Below, piece by piece: positions 32,981-59,245 of a DNA stretch of 64,000 nt. The first letter of the stretch is position 1. Each line of letters opens with the position of its first letter. Under the pieces are notes generated by a model. The model was not told the origin of the DNA and made no database searches. It saw only the letters and a program-made list of their open reading frames with translations. Both the position numbers and the translations under genes were made by a program. This stretch comes from Siphonodentalium dalli (taxonomy: Eukaryota > Mollusca > Scaphopoda > Gadilida > Siphonodentaliidae). The DNA lies in assembly GCA_032622095.1 (NCBI GenBank), contig CP136068.1:11203729-11267728 (forward strand), written 5' to 3'.

Positions 32981-33312
32981 TCTATCTATACTATATATTT
33001 TGAGACTTCGTATATGTGTATGTGGTACTTCATAGAATCCAAAACGCGTGTACAGATTGAGCTCAAACTTCCTATGTAAGTGTAAAATCCCACCGACACC
33101 GCCGTAGTCGGGTTTTCGAGAAGCCCTGAGCAACCTTTATCCACTCACAAATCACCGCAAGGCACGACGGGGGTTAAGACAACAGCGCTCTTTATCTATA
33201 CCTTATACGGAGGTTTTAACAATTAACGCTCTTTATTGCAATGGACGTGGCTAAACGATACCCCATGCGTCCGTTGCGGATTCCAATGGACGTGGCTAAA
33301 CGACTGACCCCA

Positions 33313-34061: not shown

Positions 34062-34080
34062 TTACTCCTTCACTTTTTCG
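34062..34080 (-). other. Polypurine tract, left unit
   Basis: On the coding strand CGAAAAAGTGAAGGAGTAA directly precedes the TG of the 3' LTR. That is the position of the plus-strand DNA primer in LTR retroelements. Confidence 0.75.
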
Positions 34081-34865: not shown

Positions 34866-35156
34866 TCAGCCTCTGACGGCTATAATTGGATATACATGTA
34901 GGCGTTCCTGAGTGTTGTCCCGGAATAGCGCAGACGGCTTTGGTGCATCCGTCTCCATTGCTTCGTCGATGGGTCCTTTGAACACGGCATTCGGGATATC
35001 CTCAGGTCGCTGGTCTAACTGCTTACTATACATAATGGCTAACCTTGGCAACTGATGTTTAACAAATTTCCACCAGAATCGGTGGGTCAAGATAATTAAA
35101 ATTACTACTGTAACTACGTTTCTAGGGCAAAATACCACCCTAGCCATCTCTACCAT
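34866..35156 (-). CDS. Small ORF between pol and 3' LTR, left unit
   Basis: 96 codons starting at ATG, about 350 bp downstream of the protease-integrase frame on the coding strand. A hydrophobic stretch NVVTVVILIILTH at about residues 13-25 could span or anchor in a membrane; the rest is charged, with an acidic C-terminal half. The position is where some gypsy elements carry an env or accessory gene, but I recognise no envelope feature: no signal peptide, no glycosylation or cysteine pattern. It may be a residue of a longer lost gene or chance. Identity with the second unit is not evidence of selection, because the units are recent duplicates. Confidence 0.4.
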   Translation of the reverse strand: MVEMARVVFCPRNVVTVVILIILTHRFWWKFVKHQLPRLAIMYSKQLDQRPEDIPNAVFKGPIDEAMETDAPKPSALFRDNTQERLHVYPIIAVRG

Positions 35157-35501
35157 TCATTGGGGTAATACTTTTTCGTTCACTAAGTCAGTCGTGAGCA
35201 TATTTTCGATCGTGTTTATTTGAGCGGGGTGCGCTCAAACGTAGTAACCCTAAGGGTGGCGGCGTGCACGTTATCTCTCGGTGCGCGATTGCAAAGTTCA
35301 AAGCTTTATTTATTAAATCGTCATGCGCACGTGCCGGGTTTCATGGGGCGCGCGACCAGTCATTGATCCGAACATGACTATTTATTCGCGATTCGGTCTG
35401 GGGCGTTGGGCTAACTATTTTCAACATTTACGAAGCCAGGTTAGGTTTGCCAATAAGCCAGTTAAGGGTAGGGTCGCATTTCTTCTGTAATGGACCCCAG
35501 G

Positions 35502-37092: not shown

Positions 37093-38173
37093 TTGCATAT
37101 GTGGGCGGGGTCATCATTCGTGGCGGTTCGTTTAATGTCGGATATCTCCGGCTGTGTCGCGGTGTATCATGGGATATGTCACGTGATCGGTTCGGCTGAT
37201 CTCGGCGGATTCCCCTAGGTGGCGTTACTGGCGTGTTCCATTGCCTTTGCTTCGAATCTCCGGATTTAGAGGGGCAATGTCTAGCCAAGTGATTACCGTT
37301 GCAACCCCAGCAAGATACTTGCCTTCGGTTTTCGGTCTTAAAGGGGCAGTCGCGAGCGAAATGGTCACCTTGACACGTCCAACATTCGACTGTTCGTGGT
37401 TTAACCACCGCTTCGACATGCACCTGTCTCGGGCGTGATCGGTGTTCACGGGTCGTGTGGTTATCGCTTGCGCAAATATCGCAGGTTGTTCTCGCGCGTT
37501 TGTTTCTGAAACTATCGATTTCCATTGCTTCCGGTTCGTTTTCGTTGTAATTTTCGCGGCCCGTTCGTAGGTTGAATACCCGTCGGATCCCCATTTCCCG
37601 CATGGCGATGTCGGCTGCCAATTTTAGTGTCTTCGGCGCATCCCTGATCAACTTCATTTTCAAACTGTCGCTTCTTAAAGCGTCAATATAAAACCCTACG
37701 AGTTGGCCTTCAACCGCGTTGATCCCGCCGGGCTGCTCTCGGTATGCCACAATCGCGATCTCCAAAATCCGTTCGGCAAGCACATGTAAATTTTCGTTTT
37801 GTTTTTGCTTGATTTTTCTTAGCATCGAAAAGGCGAATTGAATGTCATTTATCTCGGCAAATCGACTAGATAATTCAGTTTTTGTGTCTTGCCACGTGGC
37901 GTTAGGATTCGTGGCCAAATATCTTTGTAAAAAATCTGATACGGGGCCCGTCGCGCTCTGAAATGCCATATAGGGCTTCTTTGCTTCGTTAGCACCGGTT
38001 AGGATCGCGCATTTTTCTATCGACTTGACCCACCCGTGGTATTTCGTGGGGTCCCCGTCAAATGACGTCACTACCTGTGTCACCGTAGTCATGGCCATTG
38101 CAGCAATTTGAGAATTGATAGATTCTGTTAATGGGGCGAGAACACCAGCTGATTGTTGTTGTTGGGTAGCCAT
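37085..38173 (-). CDS. gag: Gag, left unit
   Basis: 362 residues from the ATG at 38173; an apparent earlier start at 38188 is a TTG codon. The N-terminal ~200 residues form a capsid-like helical domain (FDGDPTKYHGWVKSIEK, SELSSRF-type and MLRKIKQKQNENL segments typical of gypsy Gag). Two CCHC knuckles follow, CWTCQGDHFARDC at about 264-276 and CWGCNGNHLARHC at 288-300, preceded by a third, incomplete Cys/His cluster near 231. Gag assembles the particle and binds the element RNA. The frame ends at UAA directly after A AAA AAC, a classic -1 slippery heptamer. The frame is intact, so particles could in principle still form. Confidence 0.9.
   Translation of the reverse strand: MATQQQQSAGVLAPLTESINSQIAAMAMTTVTQVVTSFDGDPTKYHGWVKSIEKCAILTGANEAKKPYMAFQSATGPVSDFLQRYLATNPNATWQDTKTELSSRFAEINDIQFAFSMLRKIKQKQNENLHVLAERILEIAIVAYREQPGGINAVEGQLVGFYIDALRSDSLKMKLIRDAPKTLKLAADIAMREMGIRRVFNLRTGRENYNENEPEAMEIDSFRNKRARTTCDICASDNHTTREHRSRPRQVHVEAVVKPRTVECWTCQGDHFARDCPFKTENRRQVSCWGCNGNHLARHCPSKSGDSKQRQWNTPVTPPRGIRRDQPNRSRDISHDTPRHSRRYPTLNEPPRMMTPPTYAKN
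37088..37094 (-). promoter_or_regulatory. Probable -1 ribosomal frameshift site, left unit
   Basis: Coding-strand A AAA AAC fits the X XXY YYZ rule in the gag frame and is immediately followed by the UAA gag stop. The -1 frame is open from here into the protease, with no stop in between. This heptamer is a well-established -1 site in retroviruses. A downstream pseudoknot was not tested. Confidence 0.75.
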
Positions 38174-38277
38174 TATGATAATAAACAATTAGACTCACGT
38201 TTTGCGAATTTTCCCACACTGTTTCTGTTCACACTGTTCCTCTTCTGGCTTCACGTTGTGTCTATGATTAGCGTTCA

Positions 38278-38298
38278 GATCCTGGCTCGAAGGCACCA
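38278..38298 (-). other. Candidate tRNA primer binding site, left unit
   Basis: On the coding strand TGGTGCCTTCGAGCCAGGAT begins 11 bases after the end of the 5' LTR. The plus strand ends in CCA and is preceded by TTCAGATCC, resembling the T-arm and acceptor 3' end of a tRNA. The tRNA identity was not determined. Confidence 0.6.
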
Positions 38299-38309
38299 GT
38301 TAAGAGATA

Positions 38310-39058
38310 TGTGCCAATACGGGTACATATAACTCTTAAGGCTATCAGAACGGTTTGATTATTTATATATAACAAAGTCAATAATGTTCAATCATCGGTA
38401 TCTGGGTTTCTCTTCCTGTCGTCTGCTTGGGTTGGGATCTTCTTCCGTCTTCATAGGTTGGATGTATCTGCTTGTCTTCTACTCGGTTGAGTTCCGGTTG
38501 AGTTTATCTTCCTGTCGTCTCATGTTCTTCTTCCGCCGGCGCATCAGTGAGATGTTGTTAGGATCACAAGATCATCGTGTTTACCTTGTATCTTCATCCA
38601 TCCTTCTAGCTGCTTTTCTCTGGCGTCCGAGAATTCGTTGTTACTATCGGGTAGCTGGTTAGAACTGTCTTCTCATGTCGGCTTCTTCTTCCTAAAATAC
38701 CCAGTGTCTGCTAATGACCGCCATGTGTATTTTCACGGCGCGTCGGTTCATCGTACTTAGGGTAATTGAGTTATCGTCATCTCCCCATGGGTCCTATTAA
38801 CTCTCCTGGTTTCAGTAGCTTTCTAGGCGATACATCTGGTCTTGCTAATCCTCAAGACCGTGTTCTGTTTACTCCACAAATCATTTCCCTATGTTATTGC
38901 ATGGACGCTCGCTAATTCGATTTGGTGCTCAGTACTTTTGTGATCTAGATGTGGTCAACAGCGACGCTGATATGTGTGGTAATCGAGCGCCCCTCTGACA
39001 GAGATTTCCTAGCTTCTTCCCGGGTTGAAAGTTATGTCCCTGTGGTTGTCTTGGCACA
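38310..39058 (-). repeat. Middle LTR shared by the two units
   Basis: Same 749-bp sequence. It serves as the 5' LTR of the left unit and the 3' LTR of the right unit. A shared LTR is what unequal recombination between LTRs, or integration of a tandem cDNA, would leave. Confidence 0.93.
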
Positions 39059-39077
39059 TTACTCCTTCACTTTTTCG
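39059..39077 (-). other. Polypurine tract, right unit
   Basis: Same sequence and position relative to the middle LTR as in the left unit. Confidence 0.75.
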
Positions 39078-39862
39078 ATTTAAAGTTGATCTTGAAATCG
39101 CAAGTCCAATTCGTCGCTGCGCAGCAGGTCGATGATTCGTCGAAGTGTTTCGCAACAGCGGCATCGGTGATGGATAGCTGGTTCGATGTCGGTCGTCTCC
39201 GTGTAGATCGGGTCGTCTGGGCGTCTCTCAGACAACTCCGACCCACTGGCTGTGACTCTTTCGGTGTAAAACTATGATTGAAATTTCATGGCGTCGTCAT
39301 TTTCGTCATCATCGGATGTCGAGGTATTTTCGTCCTCAATGTCCGAGTATGGGGTAGGTTCTGACAACTGGTCGACCCTTGTTCCACCGCCATGGTCAGC
39401 CTGTAATACTCAAACGGATATTTGTGTGAGGTTTGAGAACAAATGACACAGTCAGAATACACAATGGTTAATTTTCCAATTTATCGGTATCGCTTGAGGG
39501 TCGTCAGATCGGCCCAATACGAAAATGGAATTTACAACTAATTATATAGATGGATTTGTTGACGAACAGTTTAAACACAAGATATGTCGGGGTGATTGAT
39601 TTCAATTATCAAAACGTATGACTGAATGTCGGGATTTATAGTCCCTATTCAACGCTTGCTATAATCATTCTGATGATTATACAACTATAATACCCTGGAC
39701 ATCGTTATGCAACAATTAATATTTGAAATATATGAAATGCATAAATGTCTATATACATGCGAATGATTCTGATATCCGCGCAACAATAATTACGGAGGAA
39801 ATTCGGAATACATTAATATACGATACATAATTAATACTAATCCAAATCCGCCACAGATGTGG

Positions 39863-40153
39863 TCAGCCTCTGACGGCTATAATTGGATATACATGTAGGC
39901 GTTCCTGAGTGTTGTCCCGGAATAGCGCAGACGGCTTTGGTGCATCCGTCTCCATTGCTTCGTCGATGGGTCCTTTGAACACGGCATTCGGGATATCCTC
40001 AGGTCGCTGGTCTAACTGCTTACTATACATAATGGCTAACCTTGGCAACTGATGTTTAACAAATTTCCACCAGAATCGGTGGGTCAAGATAATTAAAATT
40101 ACTACTGTAACTACGTTTCTAGGGCAAAATACCACCCTAGCCATCTCTACCAT
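39863..40153 (-). CDS. Small ORF between pol and 3' LTR, right unit
   Basis: Identical 96-residue product to the left-unit ORF, with the same hydrophobic stretch and the same position relative to the LTR. Function unknown. Confidence 0.4.
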   Translation of the reverse strand: MVEMARVVFCPRNVVTVVILIILTHRFWWKFVKHQLPRLAIMYSKQLDQRPEDIPNAVFKGPIDEAMETDAPKPSALFRDNTQERLHVYPIIAVRG

Positions 40154-40498
40154 TCATTGGGGTAATACTTTTTCGTTCACTAAGTCAGTCGTGAGCATAT
40201 TTTCGATCGTGTTTATTTGAGCGGGGTGCGCTCAAACGTAGTAACCCTAAGGGTGGCGGCGTGCACGTTATCTCTCGGTGCGCGATTGCAAAGTTCAAAG
40301 CTTTATTTATTAAATCGTCATGCGCACGTGCCGGGTTTCATGGGGCGCGCGACCAGTCATTGATCCGAACATGACTATTTATTCGCGATTCGGTCTGGGG
40401 CGTTGGGCTAACTATTTTCAACATTTACGAAGCCAGGTTAGGTTTGCCAATAAGCCAGTTAAGGGTAGGGTCGCATTTCTTCTGTAATGGACCCCAGG

Positions 40499-42089
40499 TC
40501 ACTGTTTCGAGCACTCAATTATTATTGCTGATAGCACGGCTTGAAACAACGGTTTATCTATTAAGTTGCTGCTCGCTCCATTCATGAGCTGCTTACACTT
40601 GCGAGGGGCCGGTACGGGCCTACATTCACGAGGGTTTTGTTCAATGGCGGCCACTTCCATTAACTCATCCTCTGAGCTGTCATCACTCGTAACCATCTTT
40701 GTTACTTTGCGCCCGTGTCGACGAGGCGCTGGAGCGCGTCGTGCCTTGGCACTCGGCTCTGGTCTCTCGTCCATGGACGAGTCAGGGTTTTGTAGCGGCT
40801 CTGAGCGCGCGAGTCGCGTTTTCCTACGCTGTAAGCGCATCTTAAGCTCGCTTAAAGGGACATCTTCGTCGTCGGAGTCCGAACATTGTCTCCGATATCG
40901 AGCGATTACATCATCTGGTAATGGTTCTGTTTCATCGCCAGAAGACCCACCCACAGGGTTAGGGGCAGGAACGTCGCTATCTTCGTCTTCGGGGGGAACA
41001 ACATACGTTTGAGCACGCTTGTTGTTGTCAGTTTTGGGGATTTCCCATTCCAGGTTGGCTTTGCGCATATGTTCAGCATGGGATTGTGTGACTTTCCCAG
41101 TTAATTGATTCCTTAACTCGAAAGTAACGGGCGTTATTTGCTTGGTTATGCGGAAGTAAAGTTTCCATTTGCTTTCACGTTTGCTTTCTCGTAAATGATT
41201 CTTCACATAGACGGCCTCGCCAATCTCGAATTTGGTGTCTGTGGCCTTTTTGTTAAATTTCGCTGCTTGTTGGCGTTTCGCCTGTTTCACGTGTTTGTGT
41301 ACCATCATAAATGATTTAGGCTGTTGCTGTAATGTTATTTGACAATAACCTTTCCCAGCACGATTGCGTCTTCGTCCATACGTGACTGATTTTCCAACTA
41401 CACTGCCGCGCCGTAGATAAACGGTTTTATTAGTGTTGTTCACAAGTAGCAATGGGACTTGATGTCTTTTACCTAGTTCCGAAATCGAATTCCTTACCTC
41501 CAAACCGGGTTTTGATGCTAGGTAACCTTTCTTGATTTGGGCAACCTCTATTAATGTCGACTTGTGAAGAGAAGCTAAGTTTTTTGATTTTCCCATACAT
41601 AAAGTCGATGTTCGGGGCTTTAAACTAACTTTGCTGGTTAATCTCAGAAGGGAAGCGATATGCGCATCTGCTTCCAAGGGGACATACACGTCACTGATCT
41701 TGAGGCATCCCAGGTCATAATATAGTCTGACCCCCCGAGAGGTCAACCAATCCCTCCCCAAGATCATATTCCGGGTCATATCATTCGCCACATAAAATTT
41801 ATGGGTTAATTTTAGTTTCGCCATTCTGAAGGTCAGTTCCACGCTACCAAGTACGCCCAGTGATTTCCCATTCACGGAGCTAAGGTTGATGTGTTCCCTA
41901 GTTAGTTTCGGTCGGAACTGTAATGCGTCATAGACGCGTTTGTGAATCAATGATACTTCCGCGCCACTATCCACTAATGAGCGATATTTATTTTTACCTA
42001 TTCTAACTAAACAGGAGCTGGGGTTCCCTACAATATTTATGTTATATTTCCTCCCATTTGTGGCCTCAATGAGAGGATTCCTTAGTTTT
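40499..42089 (-). CDS. Protease fused in frame to integrase C-terminal tail, right unit
   Basis: Identical in product to the left-unit frame, including the position of the missing RT to integrase-core section. The deletion therefore predates the tandem duplication. The frame is also entered through the A AAA AAC site at 42085-42091. Confidence 0.85.
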
Positions 42090-43170
42090 TTGCATATGTG
42101 GGCGGGGTCATCATTCGTGGCGGTTCGTTTAATGTCGGATATCTCCGGCTGTGTCGCGGTGTATCATGGGATATGTCACGTGATCGGTTCGGCTGATCTC
42201 GGCGGATTCCCCTAGGTGGCGTTACTGGCGTGTTCCATTGCCTTTGCTTCGAATCTCCGGATTTAGAGGGGCAATTTCTAGCCAAGTGATTACCGTTGCA
42301 ACCCCAGCAAGATACTTGCCTTCGGTTTTCGGTCTTAAAGGGGCAGTCGCGAGCGAAATGGTCACCTTGACACGTCCAACATTCGACTGTTCGTGGTTTA
42401 ACCACCGCTTCGACATGCACCTGTCTCGGGCGTGATCGGTGTTCACGGGTCGTGTGGTTATCGCTTGCGCAAATATCGCAGGTTGTTCTCGCGCGTTTGT
42501 TTCTGAAACTATCGATTTCCATTGCTTCCGGTTCGTTTTCGTTGTAATTTTCGCGGCCCGTTCGTAGGTTGAATACCCGTCGGATCCCCATTTCCCGCAT
42601 GGCGATGTCGGCTGCCAATTTTAGTGTCTTCGGCGCATCCCTGATCAACTTCATTTTCAAACTGTCGCTTCTTAAAGCGTCAATATAAAACCCTACGAGT
42701 TGGCCTTCAACCGCGTTGATCCCGCCGGGCTGCTCTCGGTATGCCACAATCGCGATCTCCAAAATCCGTTCGGCAAGCACATGTAAATTTTCGTTTTGTT
42801 TTTGCTTGATTTTTCTTAGCATCGAAAAGGCGAATTGAATGTCATTTATCTCGGCAAATCGACTAGATAATTCAGTTTTTGTGTCTTGCCACGTGGCGTT
42901 AGGATTCGTGGCCAAATATCTTTGTAAAAAATCTGATACGGGGCCCGTCGCGCTCTGAAATGCCATATAGGGCTTCTTTGCTTCGTTAGCACCGGTTAGG
43001 ATCGCGCATTTTTCTATCGACTTGACCCACCCGTGGTATTTCGTGGGGTCCCCGTCAAATGACGTCACTACCTGTGTCACCGTAGTCATGGCCATTGCAG
43101 CAATTTGAGAATTGATAGATTCTGTTAATGGGGCGAGAACACCAGCTGATTGTTGTTGTTGGGTAGCCAT
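42082..43170 (-). CDS. gag: Gag, right unit
   Basis: Same 362-residue product as the left unit. One visible difference is Asn instead of His at the non-ligand position just before the last Cys of the second knuckle, so zinc binding should be unaffected. Start, knuckles and the frameshift site before the UAA are conserved. Confidence 0.9.
   Translation of the reverse strand: MATQQQQSAGVLAPLTESINSQIAAMAMTTVTQVVTSFDGDPTKYHGWVKSIEKCAILTGANEAKKPYMAFQSATGPVSDFLQRYLATNPNATWQDTKTELSSRFAEINDIQFAFSMLRKIKQKQNENLHVLAERILEIAIVAYREQPGGINAVEGQLVGFYIDALRSDSLKMKLIRDAPKTLKLAADIAMREMGIRRVFNLRTGRENYNENEPEAMEIDSFRNKRARTTCDICASDNHTTREHRSRPRQVHVEAVVKPRTVECWTCQGDHFARDCPFKTENRRQVSCWGCNGNHLARNCPSKSGDSKQRQWNTPVTPPRGIRRDQPNRSRDISHDTPRHSRRYPTLNEPPRMMTPPTYAKN
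42085..42091 (-). promoter_or_regulatory. Probable -1 ribosomal frameshift site, right unit
   Basis: Same A AAA AAC heptamer with adjacent UAA and open -1 frame as in the left unit. Confidence 0.75.
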
Positions 43171-43274
43171 TATGATAATAAACAATTAGACTCACGTTTT
43201 GCGAATTTTCCCACACTGTTTCTGTTCACACTGTTCCTCTTCTGGCTTCACGTTGTGTCTATGATTAGCGTTCA

Positions 43275-43295
43275 GATCCTGGCTCGAAGGCACCA
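43275..43295 (-). other. Candidate tRNA primer binding site, right unit
   Basis: Same TGG-starting sequence, 11 bases from the 5'-most LTR. It is the primer site that a transcript of the whole array would use. Confidence 0.6.
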
Positions 43296-43306
43296 GTTAA
43301 GAGATA

Positions 43307-44055
43307 TGTGCCAATACGGGTACATATAACTCTTAAGGCTATCAGAACGGTTTGATTATTTATATATAACAAAGTCAATAATGTTCAATCATCGGTATCT
43401 GGGTTTCTCTTCCTGTCGTCTGCTTGGGTTGGGATCTTCTTCCGTCTTCATAGGTTGGATGTATCTGCTTGTCTTCTACTCGGTTGAGTTCCGGTTGAGT
43501 TTATCTTCCTGTCGTCTCATGTTCTTCTTCCGCCGGCGCATCAGTGAGATGTTGTTAGGATCACAAGATCATCGTGTTTACCTTGTATCTTCATCCATCC
43601 TTCTAGCTGCTTTTCTCTGGCGTCCGAGAATTCGTTGTTACTATCGGGTAGCTGGTTAGAACTGTCTTCTCATGTCGGCTTCTTCTTCCTAAAATACCCA
43701 GTGTCTGCTAATGACCGCCATGTGTATTTTCACGGCGCGTCGGTTCATCGTACTTAGGGTAATTGAGTTATCGTCATCTCCCCATGGGTCCTATTAACTC
43801 TCCTGGTTTCAGTAGCTTTCTAGGCGATACATCTGGTCTTGCTAATCCTCAAGACCGTGTTCTGTTTACTCCACAAATCATTTCCCTATGTTATTGCATG
43901 GACGCTCGCTAATTCGATTTGGTGCTCAGTACTTTTGTGATCTAGATGTGGTCAACAGCGACGCTGATATGTGTGGTAATCGAGCGCCCCTCTGACAGAG
44001 ATTTCCTAGCTTCTTCCCGGGTTGAAAGTTATGTCCCTGTGGTTGTCTTGGCACA
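43307..44055 (-). repeat. LTR (5'-most on the coding strand)
   Basis: Third 749-bp copy, directly followed on the plus strand by CCCA and then the remainder of the split Helitron (TGCGTCCGAAA). Confidence 0.93.
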
Positions 44056-45550: not shown

Positions 45551-46430
45551 TACTATATATTTTGAGACTTCGTATATATATATGTATATATGTGTGTGGG
45601 TACTTCATAGAATCCAAAACGCGTGTACATATTGAGCTCAAACTTCCTATGTAAGTGTAAAATCCCACCGACACCGCCGTAGTCGTGTTTTCGAGAAGCT
45701 CTGAGCACCCTTTATCCACTCCCAAATCACCGCAAAGGCACTTCGGGGGTTAACGCAACAACGCTCTTTATCTATACCTTACACGGAGGTTTTAACAATA
45801 AACGCTCTTTATTGCAATGGACGTGGCTAAACGATACCCCATGCGTCCGATGCGGATTCCAATGGACGTGACTAAACGACTGACCCCATGCGTCCGAAAT
45901 ACGGATGCGGACGAAATGCAACTAAAAAGGCAGAATTGATCTAAGAGCTCGAATTATTATGCAGAGGGATTTCACGACGGGATTAATTGACTGTCCGCTC
46001 TGAAGTTTAGGACGGGGAGGACGGGTACCATGAATTAACTCATTGAAAAACAAATAATGCGTTATCTCGGAAACGGGTGGAGCTATCGACTTGAAATTTG
46101 CTATGTGAATGTATCTTGCCCCGGATACAAATTTTATCGGGTCGCCGAGTCCGTGCGTCGCCAGCTTCGCGCATACGCAGACGAGATCTCGGAAACCGGT
46201 GGAGCTATCGACTTGAAATTTGGTATGTGAATGTATCTTGCCCCGGGTACGAATTGTATCGAGTCGCCGAGCCCGTGCGACGCAAACTTCGCGCATGCGC
46301 AGACCAGATCTCGGAAACGGGTGGAGCTATCGACTTGAAATTGGGTTAAATTAAAATAATGTCATGTTTCTGAAACAAAACCATGAGACGAATGCCGCCA
46401 GTGGCGGGCTAACCTGCTAGTATCTGATGA
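45551..46430 (+). mobile_element. Helitron copy 4
   Basis: Starts TACTATATATTTTGAGACTT directly after CTAG of copy 3, lacking the first few bases (TCTA) seen in copies 1 and 2. It ends with hairpin GCCGCCAGTGGCGGGC, TAACCTG and CTAG (46427-46430). Three ~122-bp units at about 46070-46340 step by exactly 122 bp. It retains the uninterrupted version of the site into which the LTR element inserted in copy 2. Confidence 0.82.
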
Positions 46431-46434
46431 TACC
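46429..46434. other. Left target-site duplication AGTATC
   Basis: AGTATC spans the AG of the Helitron copy-4 CTAG terminus plus four host bases. The identical hexamer follows the right arm. Confidence 0.8.
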
Positions 46435-46667
46435 CACCCTGTTTGGTGACATTTCAGGAACGATAACTCTATCCGACCTATATGCAGTACTCCCGTCTAG
46501 ACAGTTTGACCTATATTCTCCGCCCACGCATTGCATCATGGTCTATTTGTACCGGTTGGACATGTCCGGACATGACCCGCTGGTTATATCCAGACTTCTC
46601 CATATGAATGGTATATTATCTACATGTATATCACGTGATGATCTCGGTGGGGGTAGTTTCAGTCTTG

Positions 46668-46785
46668 AATATTAAAGGGACACTAGGCTCTCACTGGGGA
46701 TGATTATTAAAGTGACACTCACTATGGATGAATGTTAAAGTAACACAGGGCGCACACTGTGGGATAATGTTAAAGTGACACTCGC
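46668..46785 (+). repeat. Subterminal TTAAAGTGACAC motif cluster
   Basis: Variants of TTAAAG(G/T)(G/A)ACAC occur near 46672, 46709, 46734 and 46768, about 25-40 bp apart, with a further AAAAGGGACACTTC near 48092. They are mirrored in the right arm. Repeated subterminal motifs are commonly transposase-binding sites in large DNA transposons; that role here is inference. Confidence 0.6.
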
Positions 46786-46788
46786 ATT

Positions 46789-47040
46789 GAAAACTTCCAA
46801 AAATTCAAAACTTCAAAAATTTCAAAAATTTCAAAAACTTCAAAAATTTCAAAAACTTCAAACATTTCAAAAATTTCAAAAATTTCTAAAATTTCAAAAA
46901 CTTCAAAAATCTCACAAAATTTCAAAAAAGTTTAAAAACTTTTCAAAAAGAAACAAAAATGAAAAACTTAAAAAAAATTCATAAATTAAAAAAATATGAA
47001 AAACTTAAAAAACTTCAACTTTTTCTAAAATTCAAAAATA
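46789..47040 (+). repeat. A-rich ~10-bp minisatellite (AAAATTTCAA type)
   Basis: Units alternate between CAAAAATTT and CAAAAACTT. The corresponding tract in the right arm lies at about 58600-58880 and differs in unit order and length, so it has changed since the arms formed. The Lys/Phe/Gln-rich frame 46775-46984 is produced by the repeat. Confidence 0.85.
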
Positions 47041-47650
47041 ATTTAAAATTAACGGTCTTTTAATATATCTAACCCACTGCCACTTCTGAGGGTTCCACAC
47101 TACACCTGAGGGGATATTGAGTGGTCTACACACGTCTCCTAAACCCTAGAATAAGATCCAGCCCATAAGAAACTCTGCCTCCTGCAATGCCTGTCATTCG
47201 AATCTGACGCAATCCCTACTTCTGGCGCAATGCCTGAGTCATTCGAATCTGGCGCAATCCCTACTTCCGGCGCAACGCCTGAGTCATTGGAATCTGACGC
47301 AATCCCTCGTGAAACCTACCGGCTGACTCCACACCCATCGGCTAAGCGTTGTATCACATGCTTATTATTTGATCATATCGTGGAAATTCAATGTTTTGTC
47401 ATCACTCATGAGATATAACCCATATCTACTGAAAAAGGGTGGATATCCTCTATTTATTCATAATTTTTCTTTGTTATCTTTTTTTTATCCCTATTTTTTA
47501 TCTACCACTTCCTGTTTTTATTCGCTCTTCTTTTTCTTACAACGTCTAATCCCTCATAATCTTCGAATATCCACTTTCATCTCCAAGTTTTTGAAAAAAT
47601 TCCTTGTTTAGTAGCACCTCCAGATGGGCTCTATAGAATTTGAACGAAGC

Positions 47651-47760
47651 ATCCATCTTGGATATTACTCTTTATATGACTAAATCCGTTAGCACGCTCT
47701 ACAGATGTCATATAGGTAGCACGCTCTACAGATGTCATATAGGCCTCTTCACATCTTGTT
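47651..47760 (-). repeat. Satellite-family fragment inside the left arm
   Basis: The complement reads GGATTTAGTCATATAAAGAG, then TAATATCCAAGATGG, matching the 7-14 kb satellite unit. Next to it GCACGCTCTACAGATGTCAT is present twice in a 28-bp duplication. Slightly inward, TAATCGCTCCATTGACTGTA is the complement of the satellite leader module. The mirrored copy is at about 57840-57990. Confidence 0.75.
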
Positions 47761-49364
47761 TTCCGTAATTTATTCATTAATAATCGCTCCATTGACTGTA
47801 ACAAATTAAATTACCCCCTCCCCCTGTATTGAGAATACAGCCTTGATTATTAATATTTCCTCCTTTCATGGTGTGCATGTTCCTTGGGACATCTTTGCTA
47901 ATGTGAAGCCACACCTATTATATATATATATACAACTTTAAAAGCCCGCGAAAATATTACTCATATTATAGACTTCCCTTTGAAGACCTTTGTATGTGAC
48001 AATGATCCGTAATATTGTTTCTAAGTGACACTGGCCAGTGAAACTGATACTACGGGTATGAACTAGCCAACTTCACATCGTAACAATAATAAAAGGGACA
48101 CTTCATCTATATCAGTCTCAAAACGTGTTGGTACACATCTGTGTGGAAACTAAAACCAATCACTCTTCGTCCGTCATCCGTACATCATTGTAATATAATT
48201 TTCTCAGAAACCACGGGATCCCTTTGGCTGAAATTTGGTCTCAACATGGGATCAGAAATTATCCATGGAAGACAACAGTGTCCGTGTGGGGAGAAGCTTC
48301 GTAGTGTTTCGCTGTCGCCATGGTGTTTGTTTGGGTATTGGCATGGGTGGTGAGTGTGGTTCTCATATGGTCTGAACTAGCCTTTACTGACTGAGGTCAT
48401 TTAGTGCACATGTCATCACTTCACTGATAACCATTATATGGTCAAATCCCTACACTATCAAACGCAATGTTTCAATAATGGGTTTTCTTAAAATTTTGAC
48501 TAAATATTGGTTATATTATACGCATCAGCGATCCTTCTTAATAACGCTCTGTATATTTTCAAACGCATTGCACTAAATGGGTTTGGAATAGCCACACAGG
48601 AAAGGAGAAACTGAGGTCCTAGGTAGGTCGACTGCATATAGCAGTATATATGGGGTACAGACATGGACAGCAATGGGTTCCTCGTGGCTTCTGGCCTACA
48701 CATGACATATTAAAGTTAACCACACCCATCGGCGCGCCTTTAATGGGCTATGAAGCGCCATACAGGCTCGAATCATGGCCTTCGCCATGTGTTTCTATTT
48801 GAACCCACATTAGTAACTAAATAAAATCTTTCTCTCCAGGTTGTTTCACGCCATAACCTTGATTTGGAAAGCTTGAAGGGCTAATTAAGCTTCAATTTAA
48901 ATCCCAACATTATTTGAAGAACGTATCTGGTTAAACATGTCCACCATAGTAAGCTCATTTAATTCAAAGAGCTTCACACATAGTCCCACTAGTAATGATG
49001 TGTCGTTATTTACTGCAGAAATTGTCATATATATAAAATACAATACAACACATTTTGGCCACATACCTTAAAGGTGCACGTCACTTTCGCAAGATATCTA
49101 ACTGACCATGTATAGAGTGGAATGACATGTCGTGTATCAAATGTATAATCAGTTCCAGTATTTCGTCCATAAGGCAGTTTTGGTTGTAACATCATTGTGT
49201 ATGACGGTTCATTCATATGATACCTTAGCGGTTGCACACGATACTGTCTGTTGTATTTTATGTCTTATATCATGTATATGAATTGCTCCATGGATGGTAG
49301 GAGTATGGCATTGGTGTCTGGTTCTTCGATGTATTCTAGTCATAGTTCATTCATATTATTACTC

Positions 49365-50560
49365 TAAAATCTCCATTAAATGGAGAAACTAAAGAGCCCA
49401 TATTATGTAGACTAGTGTATAAATACTTACTTCATGCATTATTTTCATCAATTATATGTATTATAACTCCCATCAAGATAGGCTGTTATACAGAGGAAAC
49501 AAAGCATGTACCAAGTGACAGTCTGTACCAAGTGACAGTCTCATGTCACGAAAGGCCTACTATGTGGACACATGTTCTTATCAAAACGCTCTATTATGTA
49601 GGGGGTTATCAACCATTGGTCTGGAAAAGGCATACGAGCGGAACGCGTGTATACACATTTATTCGATGTACTCTTTAATCTTCGATTTCTCTTTATTGTC
49701 GTTAATTTATAGCATTATTAGTAGGAATCTAAACTCGCCGTTATATTGAGAAAATAATGCGTCAATACCAGTCAATACTGCTTTATTGGCGGTAAATGAA
49801 ATTATTGAATCATGTATCGCAGCTAAACAAGCGAGACAACTGATCACAACACAAAAATTAGTAATATTTCTGAAGCCTTGAGTGGTTTGTAATACACAGT
49901 GTAAATTTTCATTATTGCTACCATTTAAGGAAACATGCCCCCGATAGGGCTACTATGCGAACACATGTCTATATTAATTTCACATATTCCTTACCGTTCA
50001 TTCATATATACTCCAAGCTCTCTGTTAATACAGAGGCATCAAAACATTGGTCTGGAAAAGACCTACTATGTGGATGCGTGTATACATATTTACTTGATGT
50101 ATTCTTTAATCGTTCATTTCTCTTTATTATCGTTCATTTATAGCATTATTAGAAGAAATTTAGTCTAAAATCTCCATTACATGGAGACAATAAAGAGCCC
50201 ATATGGTGTAGACTAATGCATAAATACTTCATGTATTCTTTTCACCAATTATATGTATTGTACATCCTATACATTTAGTCTGTTATACAGAGGAAACAAA
50301 GCATGTACTACGTGGCAGTTTCATATGACGATAAGACCTACTATGTGAACACATGTGCATATTAATTTCACATATTCTTCTCAAAACGCTCTATTTTATA
50401 CGGGGGTATCAAACATTGGTCTGGAAAAGGCCTGCTATGTGGACGCGTGTATACATATTGACTTCATATATGCATTCATAGTTCATTTCTCTTAATTGTC
50501 GTTCATTTAATAGCATTATTAGTAGAAATATAGTCTAAAACCGTCGGTATATGGATAATA
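49365..50560 (+). repeat. Diverged ~800-bp direct repeats in the arm
   Basis: CTAAAATCTCCATTA.ATGGAG followed by AAAGAGCCCATAT and a CTGTTATACAGAGGAAACAA block begins near 49366 and again near 50164. A GGTCTGGAAAAG...CGTGTATAC...TTATAGCATTATTAG block occurs three times (about 49618, 50050 and 50417). The same pattern is mirrored in the right arm. Confidence 0.65.
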
Positions 50561-51885
50561 TATAGCGTCAATACTATTTTATTGTTGGTAACTCAAATTA
50601 TTGCATCATGTATCGCAACTAAACAAGCGAGACAACTCATAAATTCTTAATAGTTCTGATGTCTATGGCAGTTCACAGAGTGTATATTTTCATTGTTGTT
50701 ACCATTTTAGTGCATAAATTACTGATTTCTGTGTAAGAACGCTGGTCTCCATTGTTGTTATGATTGTGCCTATAACTGTCCATATTCTTAAAGCAAGTAC
50801 GGTACCTCTATGTGATATGATGTATAAAAATTTCCATTTTCACAGGTAAATCACGTATAAACGCTCTTTAATGTATAGTTAAACTGAGTTTTCACATGCA
50901 GGGCTATGTCTTTGTGGACTATATACGTGGTATACTTCAGCATATACACGACGTGAATGTGTTCTAAGTATGCGTATCTGATTTATGTATACGTCCGTGT
51001 TTCTTAAAGCAAATCCAATACATATTAGTGCGTTATATTATGATGTACATTAAGTGCCCTTTTCACTGTTAAATCAAGTAAAAAAGCCCTCTACTATAGT
51101 TAACTATTCAGTTCCACATACGCTATAAGCTCTATGGTGGTCCGGTGTGTCTTATCAATATGCCATTATATGCACGAATGTAATGTGTTCAAATATGTGG
51201 GTTATGATGTATACTTTAATGTTAAAGTATATAAGCACTCTTTAAGATATGCATATGCAGAATGTTGCCTCTTTACACTGACAGAAAAAAAAAGGAATAT
51301 ATAATTTTGAATACTACTCTTCATAAAACGTTAGAAAACCATAATCTAACAACTAATATCGAAGAACAATGTAATTACTTGATAAGCATTGTAAATATTT
51401 CGTCTGTTTTAAATAAAATGGAAATATTTCGTCTATTTGAAATACAGTTGGAAGCAACAATCAAGTATTTAAATGAAATTTGGACCAAAATCTTATAATT
51501 TGAGAAAACGTATATAATTTCTATCGAAGTCTTATAATAAAGGAAGGCTTTGTGCGAATCCATTCGGTCTAATGTGTGAATGTGTTCATCGTCGCAAATA
51601 TAATGATGCAGAAATGAATATTTCCTAGAAAAATGTTAACATAGCTTGTATTTAACCGAAATAATATAGCATTTGAGTTAAAATGTTTCATATTAGGACC
51701 ATAACGAACCAATGCATAAAAATACAATATTTTGTTTTTCATTCTCGATCAAAATAATGCAGGGTTGTCAATTATCAACAAAAAACAAATACTTTGAAAC
51801 AAAAACGATGACATAAGAACGAATATCCAAGAGCTAGTGTGAAAATAACCCTCACATTTATAAAAAAAAAAACAATAAAAATTCA

Positions 51886-53590
51886 GTTTTCGAGTAAGTC
51901 CTTCATAATTATTGAATGTTTTCGTCTATGTTGGATCAAATTTGACACAAAAATCAATTAGCTCACTAACAGTTCGCGCAATATCTCATATTTTGAGAAA
52001 ACGTTTGCAATTTTAGACAACAATATTGCTAGTGAAGGTGAATATTTCATCCTGGAACTCATGATATATGATAAAAATAGATGTAAAGACACTTCACGAG
52101 ACCTCATATCTTTGAGTTATGAACATAAAGTCATCTCATAGTGCCAATGTACCCCATAATTTGGTCAGGAGAAATATGTATTTCATATTTGACCCTTCAT
52201 CTATGGTAAAAAATGAATTAAGGGACATGGGAGTGGTGTCCTAGACATTAACCTAGAGCATAAATTGACTCAATTTTGCAATTTTAGGCAACATTCTTGC
52301 CAGGGAAAGTGTATATTTCATGTTGGAACTCATCAAATGTGATAAACATGCATCAAAAGGCACTTACTGAGCTCTGATGACTTTGAGTTATGACAACAAC
52401 GGCATCTCATACTAGATTGTAAGCCATAATTTGGTCAGGAAAAGTGTAAATTTCATATTTTATCCTACATGTGTTGTAACAATCAATGTAATTACACCCC
52501 ATCGGTCGCCTAGACACAGCGTAAATGTTCTCAAGTTTTCAACTGTAGGCCACAATGTCGGCAGTGAAGGTAAACATTTCATGTTGGAACCCATGAAATG
52601 TGATAAAATGGATAAAAAGACACTTCATGAGTACTTATGACTGAGTTATGAACATAAAGGGACCTCATAGTGTATTGTAGGTCATAATTTGGTCAGGAAA
52701 ATTGTAAATTTCATGTCTTAAGCTCCATGTGTTTTAAAAATATATTTAATTACAGCCATTGGGTCCCTAGAGATCAATCCACAGTCCATATGTAGTCCAT
52801 ATGCAATTTTAGGGAACAGTATTGCTAGCGAAGGTGAACATTCCATGCTGGAACTCATGAAATATGATAAAAATAGATGAAAAGACACTTTCTGAGGCCT
52901 TGGTCAGGAGAAATGTGTATTGTATTTTGACCCTTGATGAGTGGTAGCAATCAATGAAATTACACCCCATGGTATCCTCAGATATGAAGCAACATCATAA
53001 ATGCACTCAGTTTTTGGCAATTTAGAAAACATTGTTGATAGGGAAGTTGTACATGTCATGTTGGAACTGGTGAAATGTGATAATAATTGATCAAAAGACA
53101 CTCGATGAGCCCTGATGGGTTTCAATTATGGTCATAAAGGCATCTGATAGTGTCATTATACAACGGGGAAAATTGTGAAGCGCTAACAAAGCGTATCTAC
53201 ACGGTGTTATACGATCCAAAATGATCCTGATATAAGAAATGCAATCTAGATCATACTCAGTATCTTCGTATCGACTGAATATATCGTTATTCGATGGTGT
53301 TCCCGACATACCTCCGTCTTTACTTTTCTTATGCCTTTGTAAATTGTAGTTCGTCGATAATATATTTCTGCACAAATGGCACCCGTGTATTGTCTCGAAT
53401 CATGGGAAGAACTATCGTCCTTATACCAGCGAAAAGATGAGCGAATATGGTGTGGTATTATAAACTCGCCGCCTTCGTACCTCTATTTATCGTTTAGAGT
53501 TATTGTTCTTAGATAAAAAATTGGCGCGCGTGCGGCTAAAAAGGGGGACACGACAATCTGCGGGATGGGATGGAATATGGAATAGAACGA
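51886..53590. repeat. Unpaired spacer with ~265-bp tandem repeats
   Basis: Present only once in the element. About five diverged units recur near 52012, 52285, 52545, 52808 and 53022. They contain CAATTTTAG..AACA, TTTCATGTTGGAACTCATGA, AATGTGATAAA, AAAAGACACTTC.TGAG, GAGTTATGA..ATAAAG and ATAATTTGGTCAGGA in fixed order. No convincing gene apart from the short zinc-finger-like frame noted separately. Confidence 0.7.
53160..53405 (-). CDS. Short frame with a C2H2 zinc-finger-like start
   Basis: On the minus strand, just after a stop near 53405, the frame reads CHLCRNILSTNYNLQRHKKS. This matches the first three zinc ligands and the hydrophobic spacing of a C2H2 finger (CX2C, twelve residues, His); the fourth ligand is not evident. 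The frame continues about 60 residues without a known domain. The candidate ATG falls within the finger, so the real N-terminus is missing or spliced. It is the only protein-like trace in the 12.8-kb element and may be a relic or chance. Confidence 0.3.
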
Positions 53591-53800
53591 CAATGTGCGG
53601 AACAGAATTTCAAATTGCGTGGAACGGCCGTTATCTCGAGGAATACAGCACGTAGAGGGCTCCTTTTGGTGTCTAACGAAAGGCCCTAGCCATACATATT
53701 AACTCCGCCACTGACCGGACACCAGAAGGAGCCCTCTACGTGCTGTATTCCTCGAGATAACGGCCGTTCCACGCAATTTGAAATTCTGTTCCGCACATTG
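53591..53800. repeat. Inner 83-bp hairpin abutting the right arm
   Basis: CAATGTGCGG...TTTTGGTGTC (53591-53673) pairs with GACACCAGAA...CCGCACATTG (53718-53800) with about one mismatch, around a 44-base loop. The right half runs straight into the right arm with no gap. Confidence 0.9.
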
Positions 53801-56800
53801 AATTTTTATTGTTTTTTTTATAAATGTGAGGGTTATTTTCACACTAGCTCTTGGATATTCGTTATTATGTCATCGTTTTTGTTTCAAAGTATTTGTTTTT
53901 TGTTGATAATTGACAACCCTGCATTATTTTGATCGAGAATGAAAAACAAAATATTGTATTTTTATGCATTGGTTCGTTATGGTCCTAATATGAAACATTT
54001 TAACTCAAATGCTATATTATTTCGGTTAAATACAAGCTATGTTAACATTTTTCTAGGAAATATTCATTTCTGCATCATTATATTTGCGATGATGAACACA
54101 TTCACACATTAGACCGAATGGATTCGCACAAAGCCTTCCTTTATTATAAGACTTCGATAGAAATTATATACGTTTTCTCAAATTATAAGATTTTGGTCCA
54201 AATTTCATTTAAATACTTGATTGTTGCTTCCAACTGTATTTCAAATAGACGAAATATTTCCATTTTATTTAAAACAGACGAAATATTTACAATGCTTATC
54301 AAGTAATTACATTGTTCTTCGATATTAGTTGTTAGATTATGGTTTTCTAACGTTTTATGAAGAGTAGTATTCAAAATTATATATTCCTTTTTTTTTCTGT
54401 CAGTGTAAAGAGGCAACATTCTGCATATGCATATCTTAAAGAGTGCTTATATACTTTAACATTAAAGTATACATCATAACCCACATATTTGAACACATTA
54501 CATTCGTGCATATAATGGCATATTGATAAGACACACCGGACCACCATAGAGCTTATAGCGTATGTGGAACTGAATAGTTAACTATAGTAGAGGGCTTTTT
54601 TACTTGATTTAACAGTGAAAAGGGCACTTAATGTACATCATAATATAACGCACTAATATGTATTGGATTTGCTTTAAGAAACACGGACGTATACATAAAT
54701 CAGATACGCATACTTAGAACACATTCACGTCGTGTATATGCTGAAGTATACCACGTATATAGTCCACAAAGACATAGCCCTGCATGTGAAAACTCAGTTT
54801 AACTATACATTAAAGAGCGTTTATACGTGATTTACCTGTGAATATGGACAGTTATAGGCACAATCATAACAACAATGGAGACCAGCGTTCTTACACAGAA
54901 ATCAGTAATTTATGCACTAAAATGGTAACAACAATGAAAATATACACTCTGTGAACTGCCATAGACATCAGAACTATTAAGAATTTATGAGTTGTCTCGC
55001 TTGTTTAGTTGCGATACATGATGCAATAATTTGAGTTACCAACAATAAAATAGTATTGACGCTATATATTATCCATATACCGACGGTTTTAGACTATATT
55101 TCTACTAATAATGCTATTAAATGAACGACAATTAAGAGAAATGAACTATGAATGCATATATGAAGTCAATATGTATACACGCGTCCACATAGCAGGCCTT
55201 TTCCAGACCAATGTTTGATACCCCCGTATAAAATAGAGCGTTTTGAGAAGAATATGTGAAATTAATATGCACATGTGTTCACATAGTAGGTCTTATCGTC
55301 ATATGAAACTGCCACGTAGTACATGCTTTGTTTCCTCTGTATAACAGACTAAATGTATAGGATGTACAATACATATAATTGGTGAAAAGAATACATGAAG
55401 TATTTATGCATTAGTCTACACCATATGGGTTCTTTATTGTCTCCATCACTCCATGTAATGGAGATTTTAGACTAAATTTCTTCTAATAATGCTATAAATG
55501 AACGATAATAAAGAGAAATGAACGATTAAAGAATACATCAAGTAAATATGTATACACGCATCCACATAGTAGGTCTTTTCCAGACCAATGTTTTGATGCC
55601 TCTGTATTAACAGAGAGCTTGGAGTATATATGAATGAACGGTAAGGAATATGTGAAATTAATATAGACATGTGTTCGCATAGTAGCCCTATCGGGGGCAT
55701 GTTTCCTTAAATGGTAGCAATAATGAAAATTTACACTGTGTATTACAAACCACTCAAGGCTTCAGAAATATTACTAATTTTTGTGTTGTGATCAGTTGTC
55801 TCGCTTGTTTAGCTGCGATACATGATTCAATAATTTCATTTACCGCCAATAAAGCAGTATTGACTGGTATTGACGCATTATTTTCTCAATATAACGGCGA
55901 GTTTAGATTCCTACTAATAATGCTATAAATTAACGACAATAAAGAGAAATCGAAGATTAAAGAGTACATCGAATAAATGTGTATACACGCGTTCCGCTCG
56001 TATGCCTTTTCCAGACCAATGGTTGATAACCCCCTACATAATAGAGCGTTTTGATAAGAACATGTGTCCACATAGTAGGCCTTTCGTGACATGAGACTGT
56101 CACTTGGTACAGACTGTCACTTGGTACATGCTTTGTTTTCTCTGTATAACAGCCTATCTTGATGGGAGTTATAATACATATAATTGATGAAAATAATGCA
56201 TGAAGTAAGTATTTATACACTAGTCTACATAATATGGGCTCTTTAGTTTCTCCATTTAATGGAGATTTTAGAGTAATAATATGAATGAACTATGACTAGA
56301 ATACATCGAAGAACCAGACACCAATGCCATACTCCTACCATCCATGGAGCAATTAATATACATGATATAAGACATAAAATACAACAGACAGTATCGTGTG
56401 CAACCGCTAAGGTATCATATGAATGAACCGTCATACACAATGATGTTACAACCAAAACTGCCTTATGGACGAAATACTGGAACTGATTATACATTTGATA
56501 CACGACATGTCATTCCACTCTATACATGGTCAGTTAGATATCTTGCGAAAGTGACGTGCACCTTTAAGGTATGTGGCCAAAATGTGTTGTATTGTATTTT
56601 ATATATATGACCATTTCTGCAGTAAATAACGACACATCATTACTAGTGGGACTATGTGTGAAGCTCTTTGAATTAAATGAGCTTACTATGGTGGACATGT
56701 TTAACCAGATACGTTCTTCAAATAATGTTGGGATTTAAATTGAAGCTTAATTAGCCCTTCAAGCTTTCCAAATCAAGGTTATGGCGTGAAACAACCTGGA

Positions 56801-59239
56801 GAGAAAGATTTTATTTAGTTACTAATGTGGGTTCAAATAGAAACACATGGCGAAGGCCATGATTCGAGCCTGTATGGCGCTTCATAGCCCATTAAAGGCG
56901 CGCCGATGGGTGTGGTTAACTTTAATATGTCATGTGTAGGCCAGAAGCCACGAGGGACCCATTGCTGTCCATGTCTGTACCCCATATATACTGCTATATG
57001 CAGTCGACCTACCTAGGACCTCAGTTTCTCCTTTCCTGTGTGGCTATTCCAAACCCATTTAGTGCAATGCGTTTGAAAATATACAGAGCGTTATTAAGAA
57101 GGATCGCTGATGCGTATAATATAACCAATATTTAGTCAAAATTTTAAGAAAACCCATTATTGAAACATTGCGTTTGATATTTTAGGGATTTGACCATATA
57201 ATGGTTATCAGTGAAGTGATGACATGTGCACTAAATGACCTCAGTCAGTAAAGGCTAGTTCAGACCATATGAGAACCACACTCACCACCCATGCCTATAC
57301 CCAAACAAACACCATGGCGACAGCGAAACACTACGAAGCTTCTCCCCACACGGACACTGTTGTCTTCCATGGATAATTTCTGATCCCATGTTGAGACCAA
57401 ATTTCAGCCAAAGGGATCCCGTGGTTTCTGAGAAAATTATATTACAATGATGTACGGATGACGGACGAAGAGTGATTGGTTTTAGTTTCCACACAGATGT
57501 GTACCAACACGTTTTGAGACTGATATAGATGAAGTGTCCCTTTTATTATTGTTACGATGTGAAGTTGGCTAGTTCATACCCGTAGTATCAGTTTCACTGG
57601 CCAGTGTCACTTAGAAACAATATTACGGATCATTGTCACATACAAAGGTCTTCAAAGGGAAGTCTATAATATGAGTAATATTTTCGCGGGCTTTTAAAGT
57701 TGTATATATATATATAATAGGTGTGGCTTCACATTAGCAAAGATGTCCCAAGGAACATGCACACCATGAAAGGAGAAAATATTAATAATCAAGGCTGTAT
57801 TCTCAATACAGGGGGAGGGGGTAATTTAATTTGTTACAGTCAATGGAGCGATTATTAATGAATAAATTACGGAAAACAAGATGTGAAGAGGCCTATATGA
57901 CATCTGTAGAGCGTGCTACCTATATGACATCTGTAGAGCGTGCTAACGGATTTAGTCATATAAAGAGTAATATCCAAGATGGATGCTTCGTTCAAATTCT
58001 ATAGAGCCCATTTGGAGGTGCTACTAAACAAGGAATTTTTTCAAAAACTTGGAGATGAAAGTGGATATTCGAAGATTATGAGGGATTAGAAGTTGTAAGA
58101 AAAAGAAGAGCGAATAAAAACAGGAAGTGGTAGATAAAAAATAGGGATAAAAAAAAGATAACAAAGAAAAATTATGAATAAATAGAGGATATCCACCCTT
58201 TTTGAGTGGATATGGGTTATATCTCATGAGTGATGACAAAACATTGAATTTCCACGATATGATCAAATAATAAGCATGTGATACAACGCTTAGCCGATGG
58301 GTGTGGAGTCAGCCGGTAGGTTTCACGAGGGATTGCGTCAGATTCCAATGACTCAGGCGTTGCGCCGGAAGTAGGGATTGCGCCAGATTCGAATGACTCA
58401 GGCATTGCGCCAGAAGTAGGGATTGCGTCAGATTCGAATGACAGGCATTGCAGGAGGCAGAGTTTCTTATGGGCTGGATCTTATTCTAGGGTTTAGGAGA
58501 CGTGTGTAGACCACTCAATATCCCCTCAGGTGTAGTGTGGAACCCTCAGAAGTGGCAGTGGGTTAGATATATTAAAAGACCGTTAATTTAAAATTATTTT
58601 TGAATTTTAGAAAAAGTTGATGTTTTTTAAGTTTTTCATATTTTTTTAATTTATGATTTTTTTTTTAAGTTTTTCATTTTTGTTTCTTTTTGAAATTTTT
58701 TTTAAGTTTTTTGAAATTTTTGAGTATTTTGAAGTTTTTAAACTTTTTTGAAATTTTTTGAGATTTTTGAAGTTTTTGAAATTTTAGAAATTTTTGAAGT
58801 TTTTGAAATGTTTGAAGTTTTTGAAATTTTTGAAGTTTTTGAAATTTTTGAAGTTTTGAATTTTTTGAAGTTTTCAATGCGAGTGTCACTTTAACATTAT
58901 CCCACAGTGTGCGCCCTGTGTTACTTTAACATTCATCCATAGTGAGTGTCACTTTAATAATCATCCCCAGTGAGAGCCTAGTGTCCCTTTAATATTCAAG
59001 ACTGAAACTACCCCCACCGAGATCATCACGTGATATACATGTAGATAATATACCATTCATATGGAGAAGTCTGGATATAACCAGCGGGTCATGTCCGGAC
59101 ATGTCCAACCGGTACAAATAGACCATGATGCAATGCGTGGGCGGAGAATATAGGTCAAACTGTCTAGACGGGAGTACTGCATATAGGTCGGATAGAGTTA
59201 TCGTTCCTGAAATGTCACCAAACAGGGTGGGTATCATCA
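53799..59239 (-). repeat. Right inverted arm
   Basis: Reverse complement of the left arm, 5441 bp. It lacks a ~60-bp block present in the left arm near 50.8 kb (junction at about 54842, with TTC microhomology) and has a local 8-bp insertion at about 55445. It begins exactly where the small inner hairpin ends (53799/53800). Confidence 0.9.
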
Positions 59240-59245
59240 AGTATC
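59240..59245. other. Right target-site duplication AGTATC
   Basis: Direct, not inverted, copy of the hexamer before 46435. It therefore cannot be part of the inverted duplication itself and supports insertion of the whole palindrome as a unit. Confidence 0.8.

Follow-up and report, generated by a model that had tools for sequence, protein, structure and literature searches.

What kind of element is a palindrome of nearly 13 kb that holds no recognisable gene? The question is raised by a 64,000-nucleotide stretch of the scaphopod mollusc Siphonodentalium dalli (GenBank assembly GCA_032622095.1, contig CP136068.1, positions 11,203,729 to 11,267,728; hereafter the window), in which two long inverted arms are bounded by a short target-site duplication (TSD). 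A preliminary description made from the letters alone had offered three classes for it, namely a non-autonomous Polinton/Maverick-like element, a foldback element and an integrated linear plasmid-like molecule. On comparison with related sequences in the same genome, the palindrome is best read as a high-copy, non-autonomous Polinton/Maverick element.

Anatomy and copies of the palindrome

Self-comparison of the window by BLASTN gave inverted matches between 46425-50787 and 59239-54840 (98.5%) and between 50833-51885 and 54848-53799 (99.4%), which make up one large inverted repeat in the window (46425-51885 against 53799-59239) and bear out the near-identical arms of ~5.45 kb, with outer ends matching to the base, that had been noticed at the outset. 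The sequence AGTATC, also reported then as a flanking direct repeat, adjoins both ends (46419-46424 and 59240-59245), and the match between the arms ceases exactly at those bases; the element between them spans 46425-59239 (12,815 bp), its left end lying 10 bp further out than the start first given (46435). The share of the arms in the element is 85% as described, (5461+5441)/12815. With up to three mismatches allowed, the 22-base terminus occurs at only two places in the window, the two element ends (0/100 shuffles). When an A-rich tandem repeat is excluded, the window arms show 15 differences over 5,025 aligned sites, and the palindrome is therefore not an exact duplicate of itself. The judgement that it has no recognisable gene was upheld: the longest stop-to-stop open frame is at most 110 amino acids, the six frames of the 7.1-kb left arm gave nothing above the Pfam cut-off (with matches to E 0.1 admitted there was a single one, at E 0.03), no transposase, RNA gene or Pfam domain was found when sought within the window element, and a viral_contigs search returned 0 matches. 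The features of the window copy are as follows.

46419..46424, no strand: left TSD, AGTATC (self-comparison; 6-bp length as in other copies)
46425..53536, plus strand: complete left arm, 7,112 bp, arm positions 1-7112 (self-comparison; length from other copies)
46425..46451, plus strand: 27-bp terminus, starting (TGA)2TA, hypervariable among copies, with left and right versions identical in almost all copies read
46790..47039, plus strand: A-rich tandem repeat not far from the outer end, built of the 9-bp unit AAAACTTCA; the nested Polinton described below has it at its left end too
51886..53536, plus strand: inner left arm, positions 5462-7112, left unpaired by a deletion in the right arm of the window copy (other copies)
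53537..53798, no strand: filler, 262 bp, in place of the lost inner right arm (comparison with other copies)
53799..59239, minus strand: truncated right arm, arm positions 1 to ~5440 (self-comparison)
58623..58874, minus strand: A-rich tandem repeat, right-arm copy
59213..59239, minus strand: right terminus, the same as the left over 27 bp
59240..59245, no strand: right TSD, AGTATC (self-comparison)

Other copies were sought in the 2.23-Gb assembly of 9 contigs, and all were read from assembled sequence. Using the first 276 bases of the element as query, the best 40 of 1437 candidates were scored and comprised 17 inverted pairs with a spacing of 6 to 29 kb, a further end next to one of the pairs and five ends standing alone. 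A central query from the inner left arm found arms facing each other, mostly ~20 bp apart, at 38 of the best 40 of 454 candidate places, the two exceptions including the window copy. The genome therefore holds at least 38 palindrome centres, and the unscored candidates lead us to infer several hundred.

Nine further pairs were fetched in pieces and each was compared with the window element. Four of them (C7_202, C4_114, C9_168 and C8_207) consist of two ~7.1-kb arms with ~20 bp between, ~14.2 kb in total; C8_449 follows the same plan, with another element interrupting one arm; and C9_200, C5_263, C6_213 and C7_144 have arms made unequal or shorter by deletions. In five copies other than the window's whose centres were inspected, the centre is a hairpin rich in G+C. 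Complete copies are near-perfect palindromes of two non-coding arms, and they have no unique spacer of the sort that the middle of the window element had been taken for. The 1.9-kb "spacer" of the window is mostly unpaired inner left arm (51886-53536), paired in other copies; the right arm of the window copy lacks positions ~5441-7112 and has the filler instead, in a region that holds a small inverted repeat (53591-53810 against its own complement, 85%).

Among 19 copies, the window's included, that could be inspected at both ends, 18 show an exact 6-bp TSD and the remaining copy matches at 5 of 6 bases; in C7_202 the duplication belongs to the outer end at L011:453. For a twentieth copy (L045/L046) only the right end lay within the stretch fetched. 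With the two strands counted separately, the base at position 2 is A in 18 out of 36 duplications, a weak preference. Copy C8_207 lies inside a tandem array, three other units of which align gap-free across the insertion point with CATATC present once (93-95% over 153 bp), and when the flanks of C8_449 are joined, a reverse-transcriptase-like frame, recognised by eye, runs across the junction. The outcome named as refuting in the preliminary description, neither a second copy nor an empty site, did not occur, since there are further copies and, at C8_207, an empty site; for the window copy no uninterrupted empty site was found among the best 40 of 2039 candidates, in which its left flank appeared as a dispersed repeat with matches ending near query position 155 and its right flank matched its own place only. 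We regard it as virtually certain that this is a bounded mobile palindrome.

The left-flank repeat (46275-46424) ends in a small hairpin and CTAG and is Helitron-like by eye, the palindrome lying just beyond. Long arrays of a 164-bp minisatellite occupy window positions 8453-13959, and up to 65 bp of the 164-bp unit also occur inside both palindrome arms.

Gene-bearing Polintons and their inverted relatives

The element that interrupts C8_449 is 14,429 bp long and flanked by the TSD AATATG, and it has Pfam matches to the rve integrase (E 5.8e-11) and, in pieces, to DNA_pol_B_2 (E 6.9e-9 and 1.3e-12). This nested Polinton, the putative helper, also carries open reading frames (ORFs) with TBP and PC4 domains (L028:4394-4927 and L030:2-478), which are not known as standard Polinton genes. 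One ORF piece, with 18 relatives, none informatively named, and no Pfam match, we take to be the major capsid protein; another, which likewise lacks a Pfam match, is presumably the packaging ATPase, judging from its P-loop.

The terminal 27 bp of the nested Polinton are identical on palindromic copies C8_207 and L049, the window's version being different. In all, palindromes and nested Polinton have in common ~143 terminal bp, in pieces, together with the A-rich tandem repeat, which the latter has at its left end only; its inverted repeat is only ~110 bp and its two ends match. The lengths are also close, at ~14.2 kb for the palindrome and 14.4 kb for the nested element. It is because an element with the same type of end carries integrase and DNA polymerase B ORFs that we read the palindrome as a non-autonomous Polinton, and the 6-bp TSDs together with these shared termini favour that class among the three first proposed. 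Genes for the protein-primed DNA polymerase B and the rve integrase are present in the helper and were not found in the window arm; with no Pfam match above cut-off in the left arm and the genes in the helper, the palindrome would therefore be a non-autonomous element with Polinton ends, not an autonomous Polinton. That its ends and its mobilisation are of Polinton type appears highly probable from these sequence comparisons. On the chromosome of the window copy, ~94 kb to its left, there is also a helper-type integrase match (G000:C8:11154751-11155839), with a PC4 match ~9 kb further on.

The helper integrase gave 113 matches in the genome (best 112 of 3415 candidates scored). Among integrase neighbours less than 30 kb apart, nine pairs were convergent, none divergent and two in the same direction (one apparently a split gene). 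Six of the nine convergent pairs, here called A to F, were sampled at their ends and middles, leaving out C2:120.78, C6:86.4 and C8:115.4. The outer 27 bp were identical in 6/6, and exact TSDs were found in 5/6 (AATATA, GATATT, CATCAC, ATGCGA and ACCAGT). The fold points differ: pair A joins Polinton positions 3722 and 3976 and pair B 4263 and 4757, with a 7-bp overlap at each junction; pair F joins 4895 and 2852; in pair D both sides leave the Polinton at 3645, and in pair C the side read does so at 3470; and pair E, which extends to at least position 7043, also contains 338 bp of the gene-free arm. Further inverted-end elements, with an integrase gene on either arm, have repeatedly arisen from Polintons in this genome, and their fold points vary.

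A search with the PC4 ORF gave 150 matches (best 150 of 693 candidates), which we grouped ourselves into a main Polinton family and a second and third group. Among the matches listed, the main family has four divergent and three convergent pairs, the second group has 18 convergent pairs, 14 of these 4.9-5.2 kb apart, and the third has nine divergent pairs 8.8-9.3 kb apart; the count of stops was zero for the paired matches of both the second and the third group. Two copies of the third group were read, both with ends (TGC)2ATA, followed by bases that vary between copies and agree between the two ends of each, as in the palindromes, and both with 6-bp TSDs (CAATGC and CGTCAT). Of the divergent pairs in the main family, which are inverted pairs of right ends, C3:70.58 has both ends and a TSD, and the pieces fetched held the right end only for C3:299.36 and neither end for C5:262.28. 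At L092, a right-end-type inverted pair lies directly against the inner portion of a gene-free arm, without a TSD.

Arm homogeneity and rival explanations

The arms of ten copies differ within a copy by 0.08-0.54% (tandem repeat and centre excluded), and nine non-window copies differ from one another by 0.70-2.45% (all columns); the window row of the latter comparison (to 2.77%), inflated by misaligned filler, was excluded. Arms therefore match far better within a copy than between copies, rather like long terminal repeats (LTRs). Changes private to one copy affect both of its arms at 165 sites and a single arm at 125; for 10 arm differences both states also turn up elsewhere in the family, and of the 131 columns with an arm difference 4 have one in two copies. 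Divergence within copies, taken as a ratio to that between copies, is 0.02 for the outermost 340 bp, 0.09-0.24 further along the arm and 0.37-0.39 close to the centre. The 19 copies have 15 versions of the 27-bp terminus between them (probability of sharing a haplotype by chance 0.023), with CC or AG combined with TGTTTGG or CAGTTGG in all four ways. The left and right termini of a copy nevertheless agree in 18 cases out of 19, the exception being one inserted base; thus both ends of a copy change together. The same rule of matched ends was true of 8/8 Polintons or gene-bearing inverted elements examined.

Several observations weigh against a Polinton origin by fold-back replication. Beyond the ~143 terminal bp and the A-rich repeat (arm positions to ~624), the arms were unlike the nested Polinton in a DNA search, and a translated search of the arms against it gave nothing better than E 0.03; the idea that the arms are simply two copies of its left end fails beyond ~624 bp. 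Coding palindrome A has no TSD, and neither has the divergent PC4 pair C1:26.58 of the main family, in which both ends were found. The second and third PC4 groups resemble the helper PC4 ORF at only 46-49% and are no more than candidate Polintons, and the middle 500 bp read were not palindromic in either (2/2 copies each). Relative within-copy divergence peaks near the centre, which fold-back synthesis through the centre would not on its own predict. The left end of C7_202 (L011:453-1541) has 371 bp of terminus and then an 835-bp inverted stretch, the reverse complement of 722 bp of right host flank plus the outer 113 bp of the arm (99.8%); copying from the right arm overran into host DNA and therefore happened in the chromosome. 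Moreover, four of ten copies (C4_114, C5_263, C8_207 and C9_200) show clustering of their arm differences, with p<0.05 in one or both of two tests. Given this in-place recopying and clustering, replication need not account for all of the homogeneity.

In-place gene conversion is the main rival explanation of the homogeneity. It would make the palindrome an ordinary double-stranded-DNA, non-autonomous Polinton whose arms are alike only through conversion after insertion, as in other long palindromes of chromosomes, and the overrun in C7_202, the clustered differences and the varying relative divergence along the arm all argue for it. Gene conversion in place certainly contributes. As the sole source of arm likeness we think it rather unlikely: neither clustering test reached p<0.05 in the other six copies, C7_202 included, the 27-bp ends agree within copies though the flanks differ, and the nested Polinton, with so short an inverted repeat, has matched ends too, although none of this is at odds with conversion. 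On whether homogenisation takes place mainly during replication rather than in place we find the balance even.

Long inverted arms, internal tandem repeats and the lack of a recognisable transposase would suit a foldback-type cut-and-paste transposon of the FB, Galileo or Mutator kind, unrelated to Polintons and with 6-bp TSDs by chance. Foldback, Tetris and Galileo of Drosophila share the long, internally repetitive inverted arms; they differ from the palindrome in TSD length and in its tie to Polinton genes. Drosophila foldback-type TSDs are 7-9 bp long. The anatomy, on which the comparison with foldback elements was made, fits the earlier label of foldback element and no known foldback family was matched; with the 27-bp end of a gene-bearing Polinton unchanged on palindromic copies, and with inverted-end elements that carry the Polinton integrase on both arms, such a transposon is very improbable. 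Less probable still, to the point of being negligible, is an assembly fold-back or local inverted duplication that is not a mobile element, a worry raised in the preliminary description. Long palindromes are a known assembly hazard, and coding palindrome A, lacking a TSD, could be counted in favour; against it, the TSD-bounded palindrome recurs in many copies at unrelated sites, each with its own 6-bp TSD and private changes, and C8_207 stands amid uninterrupted array units that preserve the empty site.

Known systems, neighbouring sequences and the proposed origin

The rule for IS3EU elements is termini of TAY; the palindrome has the 6-bp TSD length of IS3EU, and its termini, TGATGATA, do not follow that rule. 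Dada elements insert into multicopy small RNA genes; the targets met for the palindrome were array and LINE-like sequences, and a scan of the window, which covered the window only, found no Rfam match or tRNA. Polintons/Mavericks (polintoviruses, adintoviruses) share with the palindrome 6-bp TSDs, inverted terminal repeats and a length near that of the nested Polinton, and differ from it in that the palindrome has no recognisable genes and, in complete copies, no unique middle. Adenovirus left-end palindromic defective genomes are linear, with protein-primed ends duplicated head to head and both ends the same; the palindrome differs from these in being integrated, in forming an amplified family and in having no recognisable coding sequence. 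A study of vertebrate Mavericks gives terminal motifs (AGT)2, (AG)3 or (AC)3A and inverted repeats of 46-1,447 bp (PMC8097293), against which the inverted repeats here are 7.1 kb and the short terminal repeat, (TGA)2//(TCA)2, is of the same form with letters that differ from the motifs published there. Ginger1 and Ginger2, integrase-type DNA transposons, have TGTNR ends and a 4-bp TSD (5-bp in TDD) according to PMC2836005, unlike the palindrome with termini TGATGATA and a 6-bp TSD.

Two retroelements also lie in the window. Positions 33312-44055 hold a 4,997-bp unit in tandem (33312-39058 against 38309-44055 at 99.95%), with weak Ty3-capsid-like and protease-like matches below curated cut-offs, and look like an LTR-internal-LTR-internal-LTR tandem retroelement. 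At 14902-19300 on the minus strand is a Gypsy-type element with three abutting ORFs, two of which have reverse transcriptase, RNase H and integrase matches; its best-scoring relative is the Pol of Haliotis discus (54%), which points to a molluscan host. The 22-base terminus of the palindrome also occurs exactly in two metagenome-assembled genomes of Desulfobulbaceae, in stretches that are ~91% alike mutually, that have only 25 bases in common with the window and that we take to be an ABC-permease reading frame; we rejected this match as chance.

For the palindrome, we propose that the Polinton DNA polymerase copies a linear element outside the chromosome from protein-primed ends, and that the growing strand occasionally folds back and copies itself, which would yield a genome that is self-complementary and has identical ends. 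The product would keep both origins and both integrase sites and could be copied by helper proteins, and while a strand is folded as a hairpin, paired along its whole length, its arms would be made alike again. The Polinton integrase would then insert the fold-back genome with a 6-bp duplication, after which arms may occasionally be recopied in place and a piece of one arm often lost, as in the window copy. We invoke the Polinton integrase because of the shared ends, the 6-bp duplications and the genes of the helper, and linear, end-primed replication with fold-back, of the kind that gives adenoviruses their defective genomes, because of the matched-ends rule and the recurrent fold-backs; protein priming, in turn, we infer from the helper's genes and the triplet ends. 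Taken whole, the account of a palindromic, non-autonomous Polinton/Maverick member formed by fold-back replication and inserted by the Polinton integrase seems to us probable, with the fold-back step during extrachromosomal replication rated at slightly better than even. The integrated linear plasmid-like molecule of the preliminary description comes near this proposed replication form. We met no palindromic or non-autonomous Polinton family in the part of the open-access literature that was searched, and one may have been described earlier in print.

A tentative extension, which we rate at somewhat below even, is that the Polintons of this genome regularly yield self-complementary genomes, some of which have become selected, amplified satellites, namely the gene-free 14.2-kb palindrome and the two PC4 inverted-repeat families. 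If so, the gene-free palindrome would have been kept at the length of its helper, and each arm of the PC4 families would keep open an ORF of single-strand-binding-like type. Polintons have been called self-synthesising and virus-like mainly on gene content. If the proposed origin is true, the palindromes would be an integrated record of the defective genomes of a virus-like element, with an extrachromosomal, protein-primed and possibly packaged phase. Recurrent integrated fold-back genomes with TSDs and co-rewritten ends are the trace expected of extrachromosomal linear replication, and the model of Polinton replication would thereby become testable from genome sequence. In addition, the 38 centres among the best 40 of 454 candidates make up a large natural set of long near-perfect palindromes, in which their tolerance, editing and recopying may be studied.

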